Shown one piece after another: positions 526 through 20,810 of a DNA stretch of 39,309 bases (within the stretch, counting starts at the first letter, position 1; each line of letters opens with the position of its first letter). A model generated the notes under the pieces. The model made no database searches and was not told the origin of the DNA. It saw only the letters and a program-made list of their open reading frames with translations. The stretch covers positions 1-39,309 of the forward strand of contig RFMS01000120.1 of NCBI GenBank assembly GCA_009927575.1. The letters are read 5' to 3'. The position numbers were made by a program, and so were the translations under genes. This stretch comes from Actinomycetota bacterium. GTDB lineage: Bacteria; Actinomycetota; Actinomycetes; Nanopelagicales; Nanopelagicaceae.

Positions 526-598
526 GCGCTCGTAGCTCAACGGATAGAGCATCTGACTACGGATCAGAAGGTTAGGGGTTCGAATCCCTTCGAGCGCG
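526..598 (+). tRNA. tRNA-Arg (anticodon ACG)
   Basis: Cloverleaf read by eye: acceptor GCGCTCG/CGAGCGC, D-arm AGCTCAACGGATAGAGCA, anticodon stem TCTGA-CTACGGA-TCAGA, T-arm GGGGTTCGAATCCC, discriminator G. Confidence 0.95.
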
Positions 599-622
599 CA
601 CTAGTTGGAAGAAAGGCTTTCA

Positions 623-3098: not shown

Positions 3099-3723
3099 GT
3101 GAAAGAATTGCCTGTGCGTAAAACTGCCTTAGTCACTGGGTTTGAACCCTTTAATGGTGCAGCGCTAAATCCTTCGCACGAGATAGTCCAAGAATTAGCA
3201 AGAAAGAAATTTGATGACGTTCAACTGATCACAGAAACCTTGCCCTGTGTCTTCAGCACGGCGAGCCAGCTTTTAAGTGGGCTAATAGAGAAAAGTAAAC
3301 CAGACGTAGTTATTGCGTTGGGCCAAGCTGAAGGTCGCAACCAGATCACTCCAGAGAAAATTGCTATCAACCTCGATGATGCGCGAATCGCTGATAATGC
3401 AGGCGAGCAGCGAAAAAACTTGAGAATCATAGAAAACGGCCCAGATGGTTTATTTAGCACGCTACCTATTGATCGAATTGTTTCAGAAATAAGTAGCTAC
3501 CGGAATTCCGGTGGGAACTTCTTTTACCGCTGGAACTTTCTTATGCAATAACGTTTTCTATTCAATGCAATATCTACTTCAAAGTTCCTCGACACTTTCT
3601 GGATTTATTCATGTGCCGCTTATGAGTGAACAGGCAGATGATTTTCCAGGATTGCCAACTATGGATTTAGAGAAGATGGTTGAAGCAATCTCGATCGCAA
3701 TCACGGTAGCGTGTCACTCATGA
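3099..3723 (+). CDS. pcp: Pyrrolidone-carboxylate (pyroglutamyl) peptidase I, one apparent one-base insertion near 3500
   Basis: LVTGFEPFNGAALNPS; TPEKIAINLDDARIADN (catalytic Glu region); AGTFLCNNVFY (catalytic Cys); GFIHVPL (catalytic His). Frame changes at taccggaattccg; reading tacgga restores SSYGIPVGTSFTAGTFLCN. Confidence 0.93.
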
Positions 3724-4741: not shown

Positions 4742-7437
4742 GTGAGCACTCGAGCAATAGATCGTTATGCATATGCTCATGATGCATCTCATTACTTACT
4801 CATTCCAAACGAAGTTATTAAGGCTGAAGACACCGATCACGTTGAGAGAAAATTACGCGAAGCTTTTGCATCTGGCGTGCCGATCACATTCCGTTCCGGT
4901 GGAACAAGTTTGAGTGGTCAAGCCGTAACCGACTCATTAATGATTGATACTCGAGCGCATTTTAAAAAGATTGAAGTTCTTGATAACGGTGCTCGAGTTC
5001 GAGTTCAACCTGGCGCAACTGTAAGAGAGGTAAATACTCGACTAGCGCGATTTGGTTACAAATTAGGTCCAGATCCAGCAAGTGAAGCTGCTTGCACCAT
5101 TGGTGGAGTTATTGCAAATAATTCAAGCGGCATGGTCTGCGGTACCGAGTTCAATACGTATAAGACTTTAGAGTCCGTGGTTCTGGTTTTCGCTAACGGA
5201 GCACGAATTAATACCGCAGATAAAGATGCCGATAATCAGCTGAAATCAAAGCTTCCTGAGCTGTACGAAATGATGGTGCGGTTAAGAGATCGCATCCACT
5301 CACAACCTCATGTTGTAGAAGAGATCAAACGCCAGTTCTCTATTAAGAACACTATGGGATACGGAGTAAACGCCTTTCTCGACTTCACGTCACCAATCGA
5401 CATCATCACTCATCTGATTATTGGAAGCGAAGGAACACTTGCATTTGTCGCTGAGGCAACTTTTCGAACAGTCCCCATCAAACCGCATGTGGCTACTTCA
5501 CTTCTCGTTTTTGATTCGCTCCAACAAGCCACATTTTCATTATCGCAATTAGTTGAATCAGGTTTAGCAGCAATTGAACTTTTGGATTCCACATCATTAA
5601 AAGTTGCTCAACTCGATCCAAAAGCGCCTAGTGAACTACAAGATATTCAAGTCAAGAGCCACTCAGCGCTTCTGGTTGAGTTCCAGGAACTTAATCAAGA
5701 AACGTTGAAGGCAAGAATTGATGGTGCGCAGGAATTACTAAGAAAAACTTACTGTGTCAAACCATCCACAATTTCATGAAGGCTCGAAAGTTCGAGGCGA
5801 TCTGTGGCATATTCGTAAAGGGTTATATGCAACTGTTGCTGGGAATCGACCATCAGGTACGACTGCGTTGTTAGAGGATGTTGCTGTTCCACTTCCACGC
5901 CTGGCAGAGACCTGTGGTTCACTTGTAGATCTTTTTACTAAACATAACTATCAAGAAAGCGTAATTTTCGGACACGCGAAAGATGGAAATATCCACTTCC
6001 TTCTTAACGAACGCTTCGATGACAAACTTTCCTTAGCAAGATATTCCAAATTCACTGACGATATGGTCGAACTTGTACTTGGAAATGGTGGAACGTAAAG
6101 GCAGAACACGGAACTGGACGCATCATGGCGCCATTTGTAAGGCGTCAATACGGTGAAGAAATCTATGCAATTATGCGGGAAATCAAAGCAATTTTCGATC
6201 CTCGAAATATCTTGAATCCAGGCATCATGATTTCAGATGACTCAGAGCTGCATGTAAAGAATTTGAAATCCGTACCATCAATCGAGAAAGAAGTTGATCG
6301 ATGCGTTGAGTGCGGATATTGCGAACCAGTATGTCCGAGCAAGAACATCACCTTGACACCAAGACAGCGAATCGTGCTTCGCAGGGAATTGGTGAGTGCT
6401 CAGCAAAGAGGAGATGTAAAACTACAACGAGAGATTGAGCGAGATTATTCTTACGATGGAGTTGACACTTGTGCCGTAGATGGCATGTGCCAGGTTGCAT
6501 GTCCGGTACTCATTAACACTGGTGATTTAGTCCGCCGGTTACGTGATGAACAGGCAGCTGTAGGAGAAAAGGCTGTGTGGACCTTATTAAGCAAACAGTG
6601 GAGCTACGGAACTCAATTACTTGGCTCACTTATTTCATTGGCACATAAAGTTCCAACTCTGAGTGCGCTCGTTTTGAATTCTCTTAGGAAAATATCGGCC
6701 AAGGTCCCCTTAATTAATACGGAAATAATTTCTGGAGGAAAAGCACGAACGGGCTTAAGAAATCCCCACGCAACAGTTGTGTATTTCCCTTCGTGCACGA
6801 GTTCGATTTTTGGTGGCTCAACTCCTGATGCCTTTCTTGAGTTATGTCAGAAAGCCGGAGTAACCGTAAAAATTCCAAAGGAGATCGCTGGCGCATGTTG
6901 TGGAACGCCATGGAAATCTAAAGGGATGAACGATGGATACCGTTCAATGCGAGCTCAAACTGGCGAACTATTAAATAAGTTGACTAAAGATGGTGCGCTT
7001 CCCATTGTGAGTGATAGTTCCTCGTGCACGCAGGGCTTAGGTGAAATTAATTCAGAGTACAAAGTTATTGATGTGGTGACATTTACTCTCACTACGTTAG
7101 TGCCGGCGCTAAAACTGCGAAAAATAGGGCTTTGGCGCTCCATCCCACCTGCTCTTCAACTCAGCTTGGAATTAACGATGATTTAGTTGCACTCGGAAAG
7201 GCAATTTCAGAGAACGTATATGTCCCTGATGCGTGGAGTTGCTGCGCTTATGCCGGAGATCGCGGAGCGATTCATCCAGAACTCACTGAGTCTGCGACGC
7301 GAGCCGAAGCCGACGAAATTAAATCTCAACAATTTGATCGGTATGCATCCTGCAATCGAACCTGTGAAATTGGTATGTCACAAAGTACGGGGAAGAATTA
7401 TCAGCACATCATTGAATTAGTAAACGAACTGTCATAG
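4742..7437 (+). CDS. FAD-linked oxidase with C-terminal 4Fe-4S/CCG domains (D-lactate/glycolate dehydrogenase-like), three apparent frameshifts
   Basis: FAD-4 domain: FRSGGTSLSGQAVTDSLMID, GGVIANNSSGMVCGT; HIRKGLYATVAGNRPSGTTALLEDVAVP; KAEHGTGRIMAPFV; Fe-S: CVECGYCEPVCPSKNITLTPRQR, CAVDGMCQVACPV; CCG: FPSCTSSIFGG, GACCGTPWKSKG, HPTCSSTQLG, CCAYAGDRG. Frame changes near 5746, 6091, 7127. Confidence 0.9.
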
Positions 7438-7446
7438 CCTCGCGAA

Positions 7447-8106
7447 ATGAAATATCAGCCAGAACGAATACCAATCGACGATGCGTTAAAACGCGGCAGA
7501 GCTTTCCATGAATTGATGGAAGGTCGACGAAGTGTTCGAATGTTCTCGGATGAGCAAGTACCTCGTGAATGTATAGAGATTGCGGTCGCAACAGCAAATA
7601 CTGCTCCGAGCGGAGCGCATCAACAACCATGGACTTTTTGTGCGACAAACGATCCTGAGATAAAACACGAGATCAGATTGGCTGCAGAGAAAGAAGAACG
7701 AGAAAATTACGAAGGCGGGCGGTTACCACCTGCCTGGCGAGAAGCGCTCGCGCCGATTGGGACAAATTCTGATAAGAGTTATCTCGATGTGGTCTCATGG
7801 ATTGTTGTTGTCTTTGCTCAAAAATCAACACCGATGCCGGATGGTTCGCTTCGTAAGAATTATTATGTGAGCGAATCTGTAGGTATCGCGTGTGGGTTAT
7901 TTATCGCAAGTTTGCATTCACAAGGTTTAGCGACTCTTACACATACGCCAAATCCCATGGGTTTTCTCAATGAGATTTTTGATAGACCTTCGACAGAACG
8001 GCCTTACATTCTCTTTCCCATCGGATATCCCGCAAAAGATTGCGTAGTTCCTGATCTCACCCGCAAAAGCGTCGATGACGTATTGCTTGAATTTAAGCGT
8101 AAATAG
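7447..8106 (+). CDS. Nitroreductase-fold flavoprotein, iodotyrosine deiodinase (IYD)-like
   Basis: RRSVRMFSDEQVPRECIEIAVATANTAPSGAHQQPWTF, EERENYEGGRLPPAWREALAPIGTNSDKSYLDVV, NYYVSESVGIACGLFIASLHSQGL, FPIGYPAKDCVVPDLTRKSVDDVL. These closely match the IYD subfamily as I recall it. Confidence 0.85.
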   Translation: MKYQPERIPIDDALKRGRAFHELMEGRRSVRMFSDEQVPRECIEIAVATANTAPSGAHQQPWTFCATNDPEIKHEIRLAAEKEERENYEGGRLPPAWREALAPIGTNSDKSYLDVVSWIVVVFAQKSTPMPDGSLRKNYYVSESVGIACGLFIASLHSQGLATLTHTPNPMGFLNEIFDRPSTERPYILFPIGYPAKDCVVPDLTRKSVDDVLLEFKRK

Positions 8107-12135: not shown

Positions 12136-13619
12136 ATGAAGAAAATTTCGCATTGGGTTAATGGCAAAGTTTCGACAGAAACATCAGGACGTACCGGAGA
12201 TATTTACAATCCGGCGACAGGAAAGGTTTCTGGCACAGTTGAGTTTGCATCGACCGCACAAGTTGGAGCCGTCGTTGATGTCGCAACAAAAGCATTTCAA
12301 GAATGGCGATATAGCTCACTCACAAAGCGCACCCAAGTACTTTTTGCTTTTCGTGAACTTCTCAATGCGAACAAATCCAAAGTTGCGGCGCTCATCACTG
12401 AAGAGCATGGCAAAGTTTTAAGCGATGCAGCTGGTGAAGTAACACGTGGCTTAGAAGTTGTTGAATTTGCTTGCGGTATCCCACATCTTCTAAAGGCGGA
12501 TACTCCGAAGAAGTTTCTACAGATGTTGATGTCTACTCCATTCGTCAGCCGCTTGGACCAGTAGCAATTATTTCGCCATTTAATTTCCCAGCAATGGTTC
12601 CAATGTGGTTCTTCCCAATAGCAATTGCATGCGGCAATACAGTCGTTGTAAAACCGTCAGAAAAAGATCCAAGTGCGATCATGTATGTAGCGGAGCTATT
12701 AAAAGAAGCAGGGCTACCAGACGGTGTTTTCAATGTTGTTCATGGCGATAAAGAAGCAGTTGATGCGCTACTTACACATCCAGGAATTAAATCGGTCTCA
12801 TTCGTAGGTTCAACTCCAATTGCTCAATATGTTTATGAAACTGGAACAAAAGCTGGCAAGCGCGTACAAGCATTAGGTGGCGCGAAGAACCACATGGTGG
12901 TTCTGCCGGATGCGGATCTAGATTTAGCAGCGGATTCAGCGGTAAATGCAGGATTCGGTTCCGCAGGAGAGCGTTGCATGGCGATTTCAGTGCTCGTTGC
13001 TGTCGAACCTGTAGCCGATCCATTAATTGCCAAGATCAAAGAACGAATGGCAAAAATCAAGACTGGCGATGGCACGCAAGGTGCCGATATGGGTCCACTT
13101 GTTACCAAAGTACATCGCGACAAAGTTGCTTCATATATTGATGCCGGTGCAAAAGAAGGTGCAACTCTTGTTGTTGATGGTCGAGAAGTTAATCCAGGAG
13201 GCGAAGGATTCTGGCTTGGACCAACTCTCTTTGACAATGTCACAACAAAAATGAGTATTTATAACGAAGAAATTTTCGGACCTGTACTAAGCGTGATTCG
13301 CGTAAAGAGTTATGACGAAGCACTCAAGTTAGTGAATGATCACAAATATGGAAACGGCACAGCAATTTTCACCAATGATGGTGGCGCAGCGCGTCGCTAT
13401 CAAAATGAAGTTGAAGTGGGAATGGTTGGAGTCAACGTTCCGATCCCAGTACCGATGGCATATTTCTCATTCGGTGGATGGAAGGCATCACTCTTTGGTG
13501 ACACGCATGCACATGGAACCGAAGGTGTTCACTTCTTCACTCGAGGAAAAGTCGTTACAAGCCGTTGGTTAGATCCAAGCCATGGTGGACTTAACTTAGG
13601 TTTCCCAACTAACGTATAA
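12136..13619 (+). CDS. mmsA: CoA-acylating methylmalonate-semialdehyde dehydrogenase-like, one apparent A deletion near 12495
   Basis: ISHWVNGKVSTETSGRTGDIYNPATGKV, IRQPLGPVAIISPFNFPAMVPMWFFPIAIACGNTVVVKPSEKDPS, GSAGERCMAISVLVAV (catalytic Cys), NEEIFGPVLSVIRV. Extra A in ctaaaggcgg gives HLLKGGYSEEVSTDVDVYSIRQ. Confidence 0.93.
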
Positions 13620-15133: not shown

Positions 15134-16696
15134 TCAACCCCTGAGATTTATGCGTAATACGTTAGGTATCGTGAGTTGATCGTGTGAAATAACAATCAGG
15201 GTATTTTTACTTAAACGCTCAAATACTTTCTTGGAAATCCTTTGCGCTTGGTCCATTTCTAAGAATTCAAATGGTTCATCAAGAATATAAATGGGAGTGT
15301 TACGGACCAAAGCTCGAGCAAGTCGAATTCGTTGCTTTTCGCCTCCCGATAGTTGTGTTCCATAAGTTCCGATTACCGAGTCCACACCAGACGGAAGATG
15401 TGAAATCACATGATCTAGTTCAACAATTTTGAGAATTGACTCCAATTCTTGATCAGTGATGTTTGGATTACCTATTCGTATATTTTCTTTAATTGACGAG
15501 TTAAAAATATGATCACTTTGAAGAGAAAGTGTGGCAAATTCAGAACAGGCGAGGTGAGAATTGCTCTCGCCACCAATGAGAATTGTTCCTTCATATGGAA
15601 TGAGTCCAATGATTGCTAGTGCAAGACTGCTCTTTCCGATACCGCTCTCACCTGAAATGAGGAGCGGCGTGCCAGGCTCAATTAAGGCAGTGATTGGCTG
15701 ATGATTGAGGCTTTCGCCGCCCCACTGAGCTCTTACGTTGTTTAGAGATATCTCAAACGTTTCAGGAATCTTCGTACCGAGAGAGATCGGTGTCTGATGT
15801 GCCAAACCTTCAATATTTTTTTGAGCTGACTCGATTCTTCCAATCAAAGTAAATGCAGATGGAAGAGTTGAAATGCCATCAAAAATCATTAACGGCAGAA
15901 GAGTTAGAGTCGCAATATTTACAGCACCAAGTTCGCCTTGAGATACATTGTGAATAGCTGTAGTAAGACCAATAATTACAGCACCGCTCGTTGCAAGAAT
16001 ATTGAGAGCTACTCCAATGCCACTTCCTAAATCCAGGATGCTCTCTTTACGTGCGAGCGCGATGTCGGTCTGACGTAGTTTCTGTTGTAGTGAAACTGAA
16101 TATCCATAAATTTTTGCCTCGAGAAATCCCCGTGAAATATTCGATATTTGCGAGACAATTTCGGTTTCGTCTACATAAGAAACATTTGATGCATGAAGCG
16201 ATAGGCGTCGAGTTAACATGGGGATTCCTATGAGTGAAGCGATGAACAATGTACCTATCAGTGTCCCAGCACGTGGCGAAAGAAAATAGATTGCACATAT
16301 GCCAGCTAATCCTGAAATAGCTGCAGAAATCCATGGAATATAGATTCGTAACCAGCGATCTTGAATGATTTCGACATCACGAATTATCCCTGCGAAAAAA
16401 GATGACCCTGTTCGTTCCTTCAAAGGAACTGCACGCTCCAAACCACGATAGAGATGCGTTTGTAATTGAGTTTGATTTCGAAGAATTGCATCATGGCTCA
16501 TTACGCGCTCGCCATAACGGAATACACCTCGAGAAAGCCCAAAGAAACGAACTGAAACGATTGCCACTTCAAGAACAAGTATTGGTGGTTGGGTTGAAGC
16601 CATAGCAATAAGCCAGGCGCTACTTCCAAGCAATCCGACAGCCATAGTCAAAGAGAGACCACCGAGGAGAGAACTTAAGAGCAGACGTTTACTCAT
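15134..16696 (-). CDS. cydC: ABC exporter, thiol reductant CydC
   Basis: Fused TM-NBD, SGESGIGKSSLALAI, LSGGEKQRIRLARALVRNTPIYILDEPFEFL; position downstream of cydA, cydB and cydD. Confidence 0.93.
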   Translation of the reverse strand: MSKRLLLSSLLGGLSLTMAVGLLGSSAWLIAMASTQPPILVLEVAIVSVRFFGLSRGVFRYGERVMSHDAILRNQTQLQTHLYRGLERAVPLKERTGSSFFAGIIRDVEIIQDRWLRIYIPWISAAISGLAGICAIYFLSPRAGTLIGTLFIASLIGIPMLTRRLSLHASNVSYVDETEIVSQISNISRGFLEAKIYGYSVSLQQKLRQTDIALARKESILDLGSGIGVALNILATSGAVIIGLTTAIHNVSQGELGAVNIATLTLLPLMIFDGISTLPSAFTLIGRIESAQKNIEGLAHQTPISLGTKIPETFEISLNNVRAQWGGESLNHQPITALIEPGTPLLISGESGIGKSSLALAIIGLIPYEGTILIGGESNSHLACSEFATLSLQSDHIFNSSIKENIRIGNPNITDQELESILKIVELDHVISHLPSGVDSVIGTYGTQLSGGEKQRIRLARALVRNTPIYILDEPFEFLEMDQAQRISKKVFERLSKNTLIVISHDQLTIPNVLRINLRG

Positions 16697-18357
16697 TGAG
16701 AAGCCACTTTATTTGGATTGTTTCTGAGGTTTTTGTTTAGATCAATGACGTGGTCTGCTAGCGAGATCAACTCCGGTGAGTGGGATACCACCAGAACGAT
16801 ATTTCCTTTATGGGCAAAGTCTTGTAGATGTTTCGCGATTGATAGTTCGCTTTCTTGATCAAGTGATGCAGTGGGTTCGTCCATAACAATGATGGAGCGT
16901 TGCGAAATGAGTGCGCGAACAATTGCTAATCTCCTGAGTTGTCCCAGTGAAATCCCGTTGTTGTTATCTGTAAGTGATTTTTCAAGCATGGAATCATGTA
17001 AGCCCGTAATGCGAAGTGCTTCGGCAACTATTTCTTGCTTATTGTCTCCGGCAATTTCGCGTAATGATTGGGATATCAGCCCAGGTGGAAATTGTGGATC
17101 TTGTGAGACCCATGCAATGGAACGGAGCCATTGCTCACGATTAATTTCTTGCAGATTGAAATGTCCATTTTCGTGATGGAGAGTGATAACACCAGTCGAT
17201 GGAGTCACGAGAGAAAGTAAGGTGTTAATTAGCGTTGTCTTACCAGAACCTGAAGGACCAGCTATAACAGTAAGTTCCCCAGATCGAATCTCGTGTGCAG
17301 AAATTCGCTGTGTGATCCGGTTAGGGTATTCAATTTCAATGTCTGTCCACGCTAGCGCTTTGATATTTGGCGGCGGTGTAATTGAACCTTGAGGCAAATT
17401 TACATTTAGATCGAGAATGTCAAAAATTTCGCTTGCTGCTGTTACTCCTTCTGCAGAGGCATGAAATAGAGCTGATACCTGACGAATCGGCCAATAAACC
17501 TCGGGAGCGAGCAATAAAACAATTAACCCAACATTGAGAGAAATCGACCCATTAACTAGCCGCAATCCAATGGAAACTGCCAACAGCGCTACCGATAAAG
17601 TAGCAATCAATTCTAAAGCGAGCGATGAAAGAAATGAAATACGAAGGACTTTCATTGTCTCGACTCGGTAACGTTCACCAACTATGTGAATCTTCTCTTC
17701 CTGCTTTTGTGATCGATTGAATACTTTAAGAGTGAGCAATCCATTAAAGAGATCGACAATGAAATTCGAGAGAAGGCCCATTGTTCGCCACTTCTTCATC
17801 ATGGCTGATTCAGTGTATTTGCCAATCAATATGCCAAAGAGTGGGATCAATGGAATCGTGAACAAAATTATTACTCCGGATAAGAAGTCATGCAGAACAA
17901 TTGTTATACCGACAAATAATGGAACAAAGAGAGCGATGAAGAGTTGAGGGATAAATCTATTGAAATATGGTTCTAATTGTGTGATACCACGTGTAGCTAC
18001 GAGCGAGAGTTTTCCCGCACCGAATTGTGCATTGATCTCTGCACCTTTGTTAATGCTTTGAGTGAATAATAACGATCGCAACTCAGCGCGAATGCGCGCA
18101 CTAATTCTCCGATTAATAAGATCGCTGGCTATTGCGAGTAATGCTCTTGCCGTAAAGATAAAAATAAGCAAAAGAATTGAAGTTTTTAGTGTTTCAACAG
18201 CTTCGCGTTTCTGAAAAGCTCTTACTACCAAGTCGGCAATTGTCATCGCCTGAAGAATTGTTAAGAAGGTAAGAGTTAATGCGGCCAGAATCGAAAGTGA
18301 AATGAATCCGCGGCTGCTTCGAGAGAATCGAAACAGCCGCGGGTCAAAGAACTTCAC
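16693..18357 (-). CDS. cydD: ABC exporter, thiol reductant CydD
   Basis: Fused TM-NBD, AGPSGSGKTTLINTLLSL, ISLGQLRRLAIVRALI, IIVMDEPTASLDQ; overlaps both neighbours by 4 bp. Confidence 0.93.
   Translation of the reverse strand: MKFFDPRLFRFSRSSRGFISLSILAALTLTFLTILQAMTIADLVVRAFQKREAVETLKTSILLLIFIFTARALLAIASDLINRRISARIRAELRSLLFTQSINKGAEINAQFGAGKLSLVATRGITQLEPYFNRFIPQLFIALFVPLFVGITIVLHDFLSGVIILFTIPLIPLFGILIGKYTESAMMKKWRTMGLLSNFIVDLFNGLLTLKVFNRSQKQEEKIHIVGERYRVETMKVLRISFLSSLALELIATLSVALLAVSIGLRLVNGSISLNVGLIVLLLAPEVYWPIRQVSALFHASAEGVTAASEIFDILDLNVNLPQGSITPPPNIKALAWTDIEIEYPNRITQRISAHEIRSGELTVIAGPSGSGKTTLINTLLSLVTPSTGVITLHHENGHFNLQEINREQWLRSIAWVSQDPQFPPGLISQSLREIAGDNKQEIVAEALRITGLHDSMLEKSLTDNNNGISLGQLRRLAIVRALISQRSIIVMDEPTASLDQESELSIAKHLQDFAHKGNIVLVVSHSPELISLADHVIDLNKNLRNNPNKVASQ
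18308..18342 (-). other. Strong RNA hairpin at the 5' end of cydD coding sequence
   Basis: Minus-strand RNA CCGCGGCUGUUUCGA-UUCUC-UCGAAGCAGCCGCGG; 15 consecutive pairs with one U-G wobble, 5-nt loop. Confidence 0.75.
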
Positions 18358-19394
18358 GGATTAATGCGATCAAGAACTCCGACTTCAGGCGTCGAAATCT
18401 GTTTTGCACTGACACGTTTTCTGAACACCCAATAAGTCCAACCTTGATAGATCAAGACAATAGGAGTCAGAATTAGTGCAACGATCGTCATCACTTTGAG
18501 AGTGTAATCCGTGCTTGACGCATTAGTGATATTTAATGACGCACTTTCAAGTAGTGAACTTGGCATGACATTTGGATACAGCGCAGTAAAAAGTGTGATT
18601 ACTGCGAATGCAAGCGCAATTGAAGAGAATAAGAAGGAGTAACCTTCCCTGCCCTTTAAATTGAATTGCAAAGCAGCTAACCACGAGAGTGCAACGATAA
18701 AGGCAAGCGCATACACCTCATGCTTATCATTGAATGCCACTGTAGTAATGCCTAAGAACGCGACAGTTGCGACAGCTGCTACTAAACCAATCTTTGTCAC
18801 AAGCGCGCGTGCTCGTTCTCGAATGGCACCATCAGTCTTGAGGGATAAGAAAATAGCGCCATGTGTAAGGAAGACGGTAAGCGTTACAACGCCACCAAGT
18901 AGTGCATATGGGTTGAGGAGGTTGAAGAATCCACCTGCATACTCGATAACACCATTCTTCTTCTCAAGGGGTACACCACGAACAATGTTTGCAAATGCAA
19001 CACCCCAAAGGAGTGCTGGTAGAAAGCTTGCAACAACAATTGCGTTATCCCATCGAGCACGCCACTGTTTATCGCCATACTTACTACGGTATTCAAAAGC
19101 AACGCCACGAACTATTAGTGCAAGGAGAATGAGAAAGAGTGGGAGATAGAAGCCACTGAACAAAGTGGCATACCACTCTGGGAAAGCAGCGAATGTTGCG
19201 CCACCAGCAACGAGTAGCCAAACTTCATTGCCATCCCACACAGGGCCTAGCGTTGTAAGTACTGCTCGTCGCTCAGCTTGATCCTTGGCTACTGCTTTCA
19301 GCAACATACCAACGCCGAAATCAAACCCTTCAAGAATGAAGTATCCAATCCACAAGACTGCGATAACGATGAACCAGAACGTATTGAATGTCAT
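18354..19394 (-). CDS. cydB: Cytochrome bd ubiquinol oxidase subunit II
   Basis: FWFIVIAVLWIGYFILEGFDFGVGML, GPVWDGNEVWLLVAGGATFAAFPEWYA. Confidence 0.98.
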   Translation of the reverse strand: MTFNTFWFIVIAVLWIGYFILEGFDFGVGMLLKAVAKDQAERRAVLTTLGPVWDGNEVWLLVAGGATFAAFPEWYATLFSGFYLPLFLILLALIVRGVAFEYRSKYGDKQWRARWDNAIVVASFLPALLWGVAFANIVRGVPLEKKNGVIEYAGGFFNLLNPYALLGGVVTLTVFLTHGAIFLSLKTDGAIRERARALVTKIGLVAAVATVAFLGITTVAFNDKHEVYALAFIVALSWLAALQFNLKGREGYSFLFSSIALAFAVITLFTALYPNVMPSSLLESASLNITNASSTDYTLKVMTIVALILTPIVLIYQGWTYWVFRKRVSAKQISTPEVGVLDRINP

Positions 19395-19403
19395 GACATC
19401 CTC

Positions 19404-20810
19404 CTAGTAAGCCATCGTCAGTGTGCGGTCTGAATCTCCGCCGACTGCGACATCTTCAATTGGTCGATCAAATGTTTCAGGTCCAACTTTGATTGCTCTT
19501 AACATGAGACCGAATTCGATTATGGCGAGCACTCCATAGAGAAGAGTGAAAACAACAAGTGTAAATGCGACCGAACCTGCACCGACGGCAGGGCTGACAC
19601 CATCTGCGGTTTTTATAAGTCCAAAAACAGCCCATGGTTGGCGAGCATTTTCGGTGAATATCCAACCAAACGAATTTGCGAGTAATGGTAAGAACGGCAT
19701 TGAAATCATTGCTGGCAAGAACCATTTACCTTTTGGCAATTCGTTGCGATTGATTCGGTAGAGAGCGATGAGCGAGAACAACAGAGCAAGGAAACCAAAT
19801 CCGATCATGAAGCGAAATCCCCAATACGCAATCGGAATATTTGGCGTGTAATCGCCAGCGCCGAATTGTTGTGCGTATTTGTTCTGTAGATCATTGATGC
19901 CTTCCACTACACCGTTTGTGCTGCCAGTGGACATAAATGAAAGAACTCCTGGTAGATCAATTTGAAATACCGATCGTGAACCATCAAGTGTTCCAATAGT
20001 GAAGAGAGAGAATGGAGCATTTGCTTCCGATGAATAAAGCGCTTCTGCCGCTGCCATCTTCATCGGCTGTTGGGTAGTCATAATTCGTGCGGTCAAATCA
20101 CCAGTTACCGCCACAAGAATGAAGGCGACAATAACCGTGATAAATCCCAGACGCGCAGTGCTTCGTGCCATTGTGACATCGCGATTCTTAATTAATAAGT
20201 ATGCGGAAACGCCAGCGACAAACGCGCCAGCAGTAAAGAAGGCGGCGGGAATCGTATGTCCGAACGATGCAAGAGCGGTGTTTTGCGTTAATACTTTGAA
20301 TATATCTGTTAGTTCAGCTCGACCACGAGCAGTATTCATTGTGTATCCAACCGGATGCTGCATCCAAGCATTTGCAGCGAGAATGAAATAAGCCGAAAAG
20401 AGGGTACCGAATGATGCCGCCCAGATACTTGCTAGATGAAGTTTCTTTGGCAGTCGATCCCAGCCGAAGATCCATATTCCCAAGAATGTGCTCTCCAAGA
20501 AGAAAGCCAGTAATCCTTCCATCGCAAGAGGCGCTCCGAAAATATCTCCAACAAAACGACTGTATGAAGACCAATTCATTCCAAATTGGAATTCTTGAAC
20601 GATTCCCGTCACGACACCCATTGCAAAGTTAATAAGGAATAACTTTCCAAAGAATTTCGTCGCTCGAAGGTAATGTGGCTTTGACGTTCGATACCAAGCG
20701 GTTTGTAAGCCAGCGACAAGAAAACCGGTACCGATAGTAATTGGTACAAAAATAAAGTGATAAACAGTTGTAATGGCAAATTGCCATCGGGCAAGATCAA
20801 GCGAATTCAT
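19404..20810 (-). CDS. cydA: Cytochrome bd ubiquinol oxidase subunit I
   Basis: LDLARWQFAITTVYHFIFVPITIG, NFAMGVVTGIVQEFQFGMNWSSYSRFVGDIFGAPLAMEGLLAFFLESTFLG, QPMKMAAAEALY, YWGFRFMIGFG; SD aaggagag upstream. Confidence 0.98.
   Translation of the reverse strand: MNSLDLARWQFAITTVYHFIFVPITIGTGFLVAGLQTAWYRTSKPHYLRATKFFGKLFLINFAMGVVTGIVQEFQFGMNWSSYSRFVGDIFGAPLAMEGLLAFFLESTFLGIWIFGWDRLPKKLHLASIWAASFGTLFSAYFILAANAWMQHPVGYTMNTARGRAELTDIFKVLTQNTALASFGHTIPAAFFTAGAFVAGVSAYLLIKNRDVTMARSTARLGFITVIVAFILVAVTGDLTARIMTTQQPMKMAAAEALYSSEANAPFSLFTIGTLDGSRSVFQIDLPGVLSFMSTGSTNGVVEGINDLQNKYAQQFGAGDYTPNIPIAYWGFRFMIGFGFLALLFSLIALYRINRNELPKGKWFLPAMISMPFLPLLANSFGWIFTENARQPWAVFGLIKTADGVSPAVGAGSVAFTLVVFTLLYGVLAIIEFGLMLRAIKVGPETFDRPIEDVAVGGDSDRTLTMAY

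Follow-up and report, generated by a model that had tools for sequence, protein, structure and literature searches.

The window analysed here (39,309 nucleotides) is an entire 39.3-kb contig from a small, freshwater-type actinobacterium of the acI kind (Nanopelagicales), whose assembly of 1.41 Mb is 80.6% complete. It carries an intact gene for a flavoprotein of the iodotyrosine deiodinase (IYD) type (Table 1), which is the only gene of nitroreductase fold that we found in this assembly. In the animal thyroid, enzymes of this type remove iodine from tyrosine. The product begins with MKYQPERIPIDDALKRGRAFHELMEGRRSVRMFSDEQVP, and on the reverse strand opposite the gene, stops interrupt reading. 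The open reading frame and the motifs quoted in the first-pass annotation were all found exactly as given there. The protein starts at the point where the catalytic domain of the animal IYDs begins and has no N-terminal extension (the first helix of the model described below spans residues 10–25), so the annotation was also right that the membrane anchor is absent.

Immediately upstream, with its end 9 bases ahead of the IYD start codon, is a gene for an FAD-linked oxidase and Fe-S protein that is split into four pieces read in different frames, and convergent ABC-2 transporter genes come after the IYD gene. Farther upstream, a pyroglutamyl peptidase gene is split over two frames (3129–3714); most genes after 7447 are intact. 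These upstream frame breaks (3129–3714 and 4742–7437) may be assembly errors or real decay. Elsewhere in the window, a methylmalonate-semialdehyde dehydrogenase gene (12136–13619) is apparently split into two overlapping frames (142 and 382 amino acids), of which the 382-amino-acid piece matches model positions 117–477 only. On the minus strand (15134–20810), the genes for cytochrome bd subunits I and II precede a pair of ABC exporter genes, probably CydDC-type, in what is an ordinary cyd cluster.

Table 1. Features of the IYD locus and predicted functional residues of its product (positions in the window).
Feature	Position	Strand	Remarks
tRNA-Arg(ACG), edge of IYD-bearing variable region	526..599	+	in this genus
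FAD-linked oxidase + Fe-S/CCG protein (D-2-hydroxyacid dehydrogenase type, YdiJ/GlcD-like)	4742..7437	+	four pieces, different frames
Iodotyrosine deiodinase-type flavoprotein gene	7447..8106	+	219 aa, ATG..TAG, intact
RRSVR, residues 27-31	7525..7539	+	FMN contacts by alignment, = mouse R96-R100
PSGA, residues 54-57	7606..7617	+	predicted FMN contacts P54/S55; A57 = mouse A126
E84, predicted lid residue for substrate zwitterion	7696..7698	+	= mouse E153
Y88, predicted lid residue for substrate zwitterion	7708..7710	+	= mouse Y157
K110, predicted lid residue for substrate zwitterion	7774..7776	+	= mouse K178
T167, predicted flavin N5 hydrogen bond	7945..7947	+	= mouse T235, human T239
R206, predicted FMN contact	8062..8064	+	= mouse R275

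Automatic annotation labels the gene just "nitroreductase family protein," and hence the spread of this IYD is easily overlooked. Among Pfam families the protein matches Nitroreductase only (PF00881, 8e-16), and its NCBIfam matches are both below the cut-off (BluB, TIGR02476, 40.8 bits vs. a cut-off of 150 bits; FbiB C-terminal domain, TIGR03553, 37.7 bits vs. 249.55). Comparison with the sequences in the PDB (phmmer) is more specific. The best solved relative is the IYD of Haliscomenobacter hydrossis (hhIYD; 5ko7/5ko8; E = 2.6e-68), and human and mouse IYD are next (E about 1e-49). The short bacterial IYD 6pz0 follows at 5e-20, and all other nitroreductases are at 1e-12 or weaker. Against five orthologues, codon positions 1 and 2 are 84–86% identical and third positions are 27–43% identical (near saturation). 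As the third positions have diverged while the first two were kept, the protein is under strong purifying selection. This codon-position pattern, together with the E values for hhIYD and the mammalian enzymes, excludes a chance resemblance.

The tree and the predicted fold give the same placement. With BluB and FbiB-type sequences as the outgroup, the window protein falls within the IYD clade, together with hhIYD and mouse IYD, and BluB and FbiB are split off with 100/96 support. Its nearest rows are proteins from acI-type and other Nanopelagicales and Actinomycetota, and then from Nocardia, Acidimicrobiia, and other phyla; the deep branches are poorly resolved. We also modelled the protein as a monomer with AlphaFold2, from an alignment of 34 sequences (A1) and without templates (pLDDT 92.4, pTM 0.89). 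When this model was compared with the PDB by Foldseek, the first 25 chains were all IYD. The best match was the closed, iodotyrosine-bound structure 5ko8 (TM 0.95, rmsd 1.2 Å), ahead of the ligand-free IYD forms (TM 0.79–0.87). The first protein that is not an IYD had a TM of 0.71 at 4.8 Å, and other nitroreductases had a TM of 0.71 or less. The model agrees with a lid capable of closing on an amino-acid substrate, although it is not independent of the IYD structures, which are present in AlphaFold's training data.

The residues expected to bind the flavin and the substrate are conserved as well. To map them, we aligned the window protein with hhIYD, mouse IYD, and 40 homologues and read off the positions in mouse numbering. 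Mouse IYD contacts FMN through R96, R97, S98, R100, P123, S124, T235, and R275 (PMC3930498), and all eight are identical in the window protein. E84, Y88, and K110 align with the mouse triad in the lid columns (Table 1), which bears out the equivalent spacing of Glu, Tyr, and Lys that had been proposed. These three residues, along with A57 and T167, are identical in 38 of 38 bacterial homologues (not counting the degraded reading L043 and the remotely related L044), and the triad is among the 41 invariant columns of alignment A1. The equivalent of T167 in the mouse enzyme forms a hydrogen bond to flavin N5, and the backbone NH of mouse A126, the equivalent of A57, contacts the phenolate of the substrate. 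Thus, the PDB ranking, the tree, the fold, and the lid residues all agree with the IYD-like identity put forward in the first-pass annotation, and sequence-level tests that could have refuted it did not.

Among the characterised enzymes, hhIYD (5ko7, 5ko8, 5krd) is the most similar, with 48% identity over the whole chain (structural match) and an rmsd of 1.2 Å to the closed-lid form. The FMN contacts are alike except for one S/T exchange, and the Glu/Tyr/Lys triad and a THT motif are common to both. However, the window protein has an extra Gly after Y88, and two residues ahead of K110 it carries Ser where hhIYD has Trp; the phyla also differ, Actinomycetota for the window protein and Bacteroidota for hhIYD. 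Human and mouse IYD (DEHAL1; 4ttc, 3gfd, 3gh8) are about 40% identical to the window protein (rmsd 1.3 Å), and the catalytic and binding residues are all conserved; the animal enzymes differ in having the membrane anchor and in a TTTPLNCG motif in place of the bacterial THTPNPM. 6pz0, from Thermotoga neapolitana, has the same fold and an annotated IYD activity, but it has a shorter chain and is only 28% identical, and the window protein is much nearer to hhIYD and to the animal enzymes. BluB, the FbiB C-terminal domain, and generic nitroreductases share the FMN-binding superfamily fold and the arginine-rich N-terminal motif, but they form the separate clade described above and match the fold markedly less well.

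Both changes in the lid are found in relatives of the window protein. The inserted Gly (the "GG" of YEGGR, between Y88 and K110) is common to nearly all of the actinobacterial relatives, and Ser108, where hhIYD and mouse IYD carry Trp, is also Ser in most of them. Because of these two changes, the substrate range may differ from that of the characterised enzymes.

The IYD gene is patchily distributed. Orthologues (67–83% identity) are present in 13 of the 296 genomes in our sample of the order, all from one family, and in 4 of the 108 good-quality genomes. Within the genus, tRNA-Arg(ACG) (position 526 of the window, 3864 of locus L004, and 4772 of locus L018) marks the start of a variable stretch that carries the gene together with differing cargo; in other genera, the gene is located elsewhere. 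A 99%-complete relative (G015) retains a 77-codon remnant in which residues 28–54 are joined to residues 184–213 (L059:1360-1650, G015:C38). As the middle of the gene has been deleted, this is a case of gene loss. The simplest reading of the patchiness is loss, transfer, or both. (An apparent fusion protein of 492–503 amino acids at L018 and L054 was rejected because a scaffold gap, filled with N, makes up its N-terminal part.) More broadly, 22 of 397 Actinomycetota genomes (about 5%) have a homologue at E < 1e-30. The first-pass annotation had called the function unexpected for a compact bacterial genome. The small-genome setting is indeed unusual, but given this frequency, and given that crystal structures of bacterial IYDs date back to 2017 (5ko7/5ko8, 6pz0), the function itself is less so: the enzyme type was already known from bacteria of other phyla, and the window gene adds a member. 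In the literature that we searched, we found no paper linking Nanopelagicales to dehalogenation.

The gene neighbourhood does not point to a particular pathway. The genus's four other genomes lack the FAD/Fe-S oxidoreductase, and the neighbours of the orthologues vary (pyroglutamyl peptidase, a GlcD-like oxidase, subtilase, amidase, an agmatinase-type protein, rhodanese, purine biosynthesis, FMO), so we rejected a conserved operon with IYD. As different genes adjoin IYD in different relatives, we do not claim a shared pathway partner. Genes of halogen or tyrosine pathways were absent from the IYD neighbourhood. Several of the neighbours degrade proteins or amino acids, which would fit a salvage of protein-derived halotyrosine; we regard this as no more than suggestive. 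On a linear plasmid of Streptomyces sp. NBC_00525 (L077:6288-7660), an orthologue with 66% identity is divergent from a regulator of the Lrp/AsnC family. This pairing hints at an amino-acid substrate and possibly at amino-acid-sensing control; among the loci that we checked, this plasmid is the only one with such a regulator beside IYD.

A homologue of IYD is also encoded on two phage contigs, at L074:2911-3651 (IMGVR_UViG_3300043418_000287) and L075:2911-3651 (IMGVR_UViG_3300043466_003447). It is 44% identical to the window protein, its best PDB match is hhIYD (8e-61), and the Glu/Tyr/Lys triad and the Thr for flavin N5 are conserved. The gene is on the opposite strand, between genes for the terminase subunits (on the small-terminase side) and a gene for a ParB-like DNA methyltransferase. 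(These gene calls are from PHROG matches on L074 only, and the layout of open reading frames on L075 is identical.) These flanking genes give it the look of cargo carried by a phage or prophage. With its triad intact, this is the most surprising find of the analysis, more so than the window gene. We found no IYD in annotated phage records, and no paper in the literature searched describes iodotyrosine deiodinase as a phage auxiliary gene.

We propose that the window gene very probably encodes a soluble, FMN-dependent iodotyrosine deiodinase (a halotyrosine dehalogenase), with the activity argued from homology. A homodimer, expected to be domain-swapped as in the IYD family, would bind FMN via R27, R28, S29, R31, P54, S55, T167, and R206. 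Free halotyrosine (iodo-, bromo-, or chlorotyrosine) would stack on the flavin, the backbone of A57 holding its phenolate, while E84, Y88, and K110 would grip its ammonium and carboxylate groups and close the lid. With a hydrogen bond from T167 to its N5, the reduced flavin would then give two single electrons, so that the halide leaves and tyrosine is released, and a cellular reductase would recharge the FMN. The outline of this mechanism (reduction of the flavin, ordering of the lid, and two one-electron steps) is that of the IYD family. The likely role is the salvage of tyrosine and the disposal of halotyrosine, from halogenated proteins or peptides taken up by a small heterotroph.

The most serious alternative, to which we give a minority chance, is that the protein has the IYD fold and the clamp for the zwitterion but that its natural substrate is another aromatic amino acid derivative (for instance, tyrosine in chlorinated or nitrated form, or a halogenated metabolite derived from peptides), with deiodination being incidental. 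Iodine is scarce in fresh water, and the lid departs from the characterised IYDs not only at Ser108 and the extra Gly but also at I104. Chlorotyrosine natural products, perhaps reversed by microbial dehalogenases, have been suggested (ISME J, PMC9751292). The orthologue on the Streptomyces plasmid, with its divergent regulator of a typically amino-acid-responsive type, would fit this alternative too, but this is just one of the loci checked, and every residue by which IYD recognises halotyrosine has been kept.

Two other explanations are much less probable. One is that the protein is a generic NAD(P)H flavin reductase or nitroreductase (like NfsB, FRP, BluB, or FbiB) and that its likeness to IYD is not functional. 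Pfam and NCBIfam alone would lead there, but the scores are far from the cut-offs (41 of 150 bits for BluB and 38 of 250 for FbiB), while sequence, tree, and fold all lead to IYD and the IYD-specific triad is invariant; we strongly disfavour this explanation and consider it very improbable. Even less credible is a decaying gene without function, as might be imagined from the split FAD/Fe-S and pyroglutamyl-peptidase genes upstream and from the remnant in G015: the reading frame in the window is full length, its key residues are all intact, and it is under strong purifying selection.

A broader and rather doubtful idea is that streamlined freshwater actinobacteria exchange a laterally mobile enzyme for halotyrosine salvage, kept on the tRNA-adjacent variable region, with a lid altered (S108 and the extra Gly) to favour chloro- or bromotyrosine over iodotyrosine. 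If true, this would be an unrecognised step in the turnover of organohalogens in lakes. To our knowledge, it is still unsettled why an enzyme with which animals recycle iodide is retained by bacteria. Closely related strains with the gene, without it, and with a deleted copy make up a defined comparison set. As few dispensable genes survive in genomes of 1.1–1.8 Mb, an intact, selected, and patchily kept IYD gene points to a genuine benefit under selection, for instance through the salvage of halotyrosine from environmental protein.
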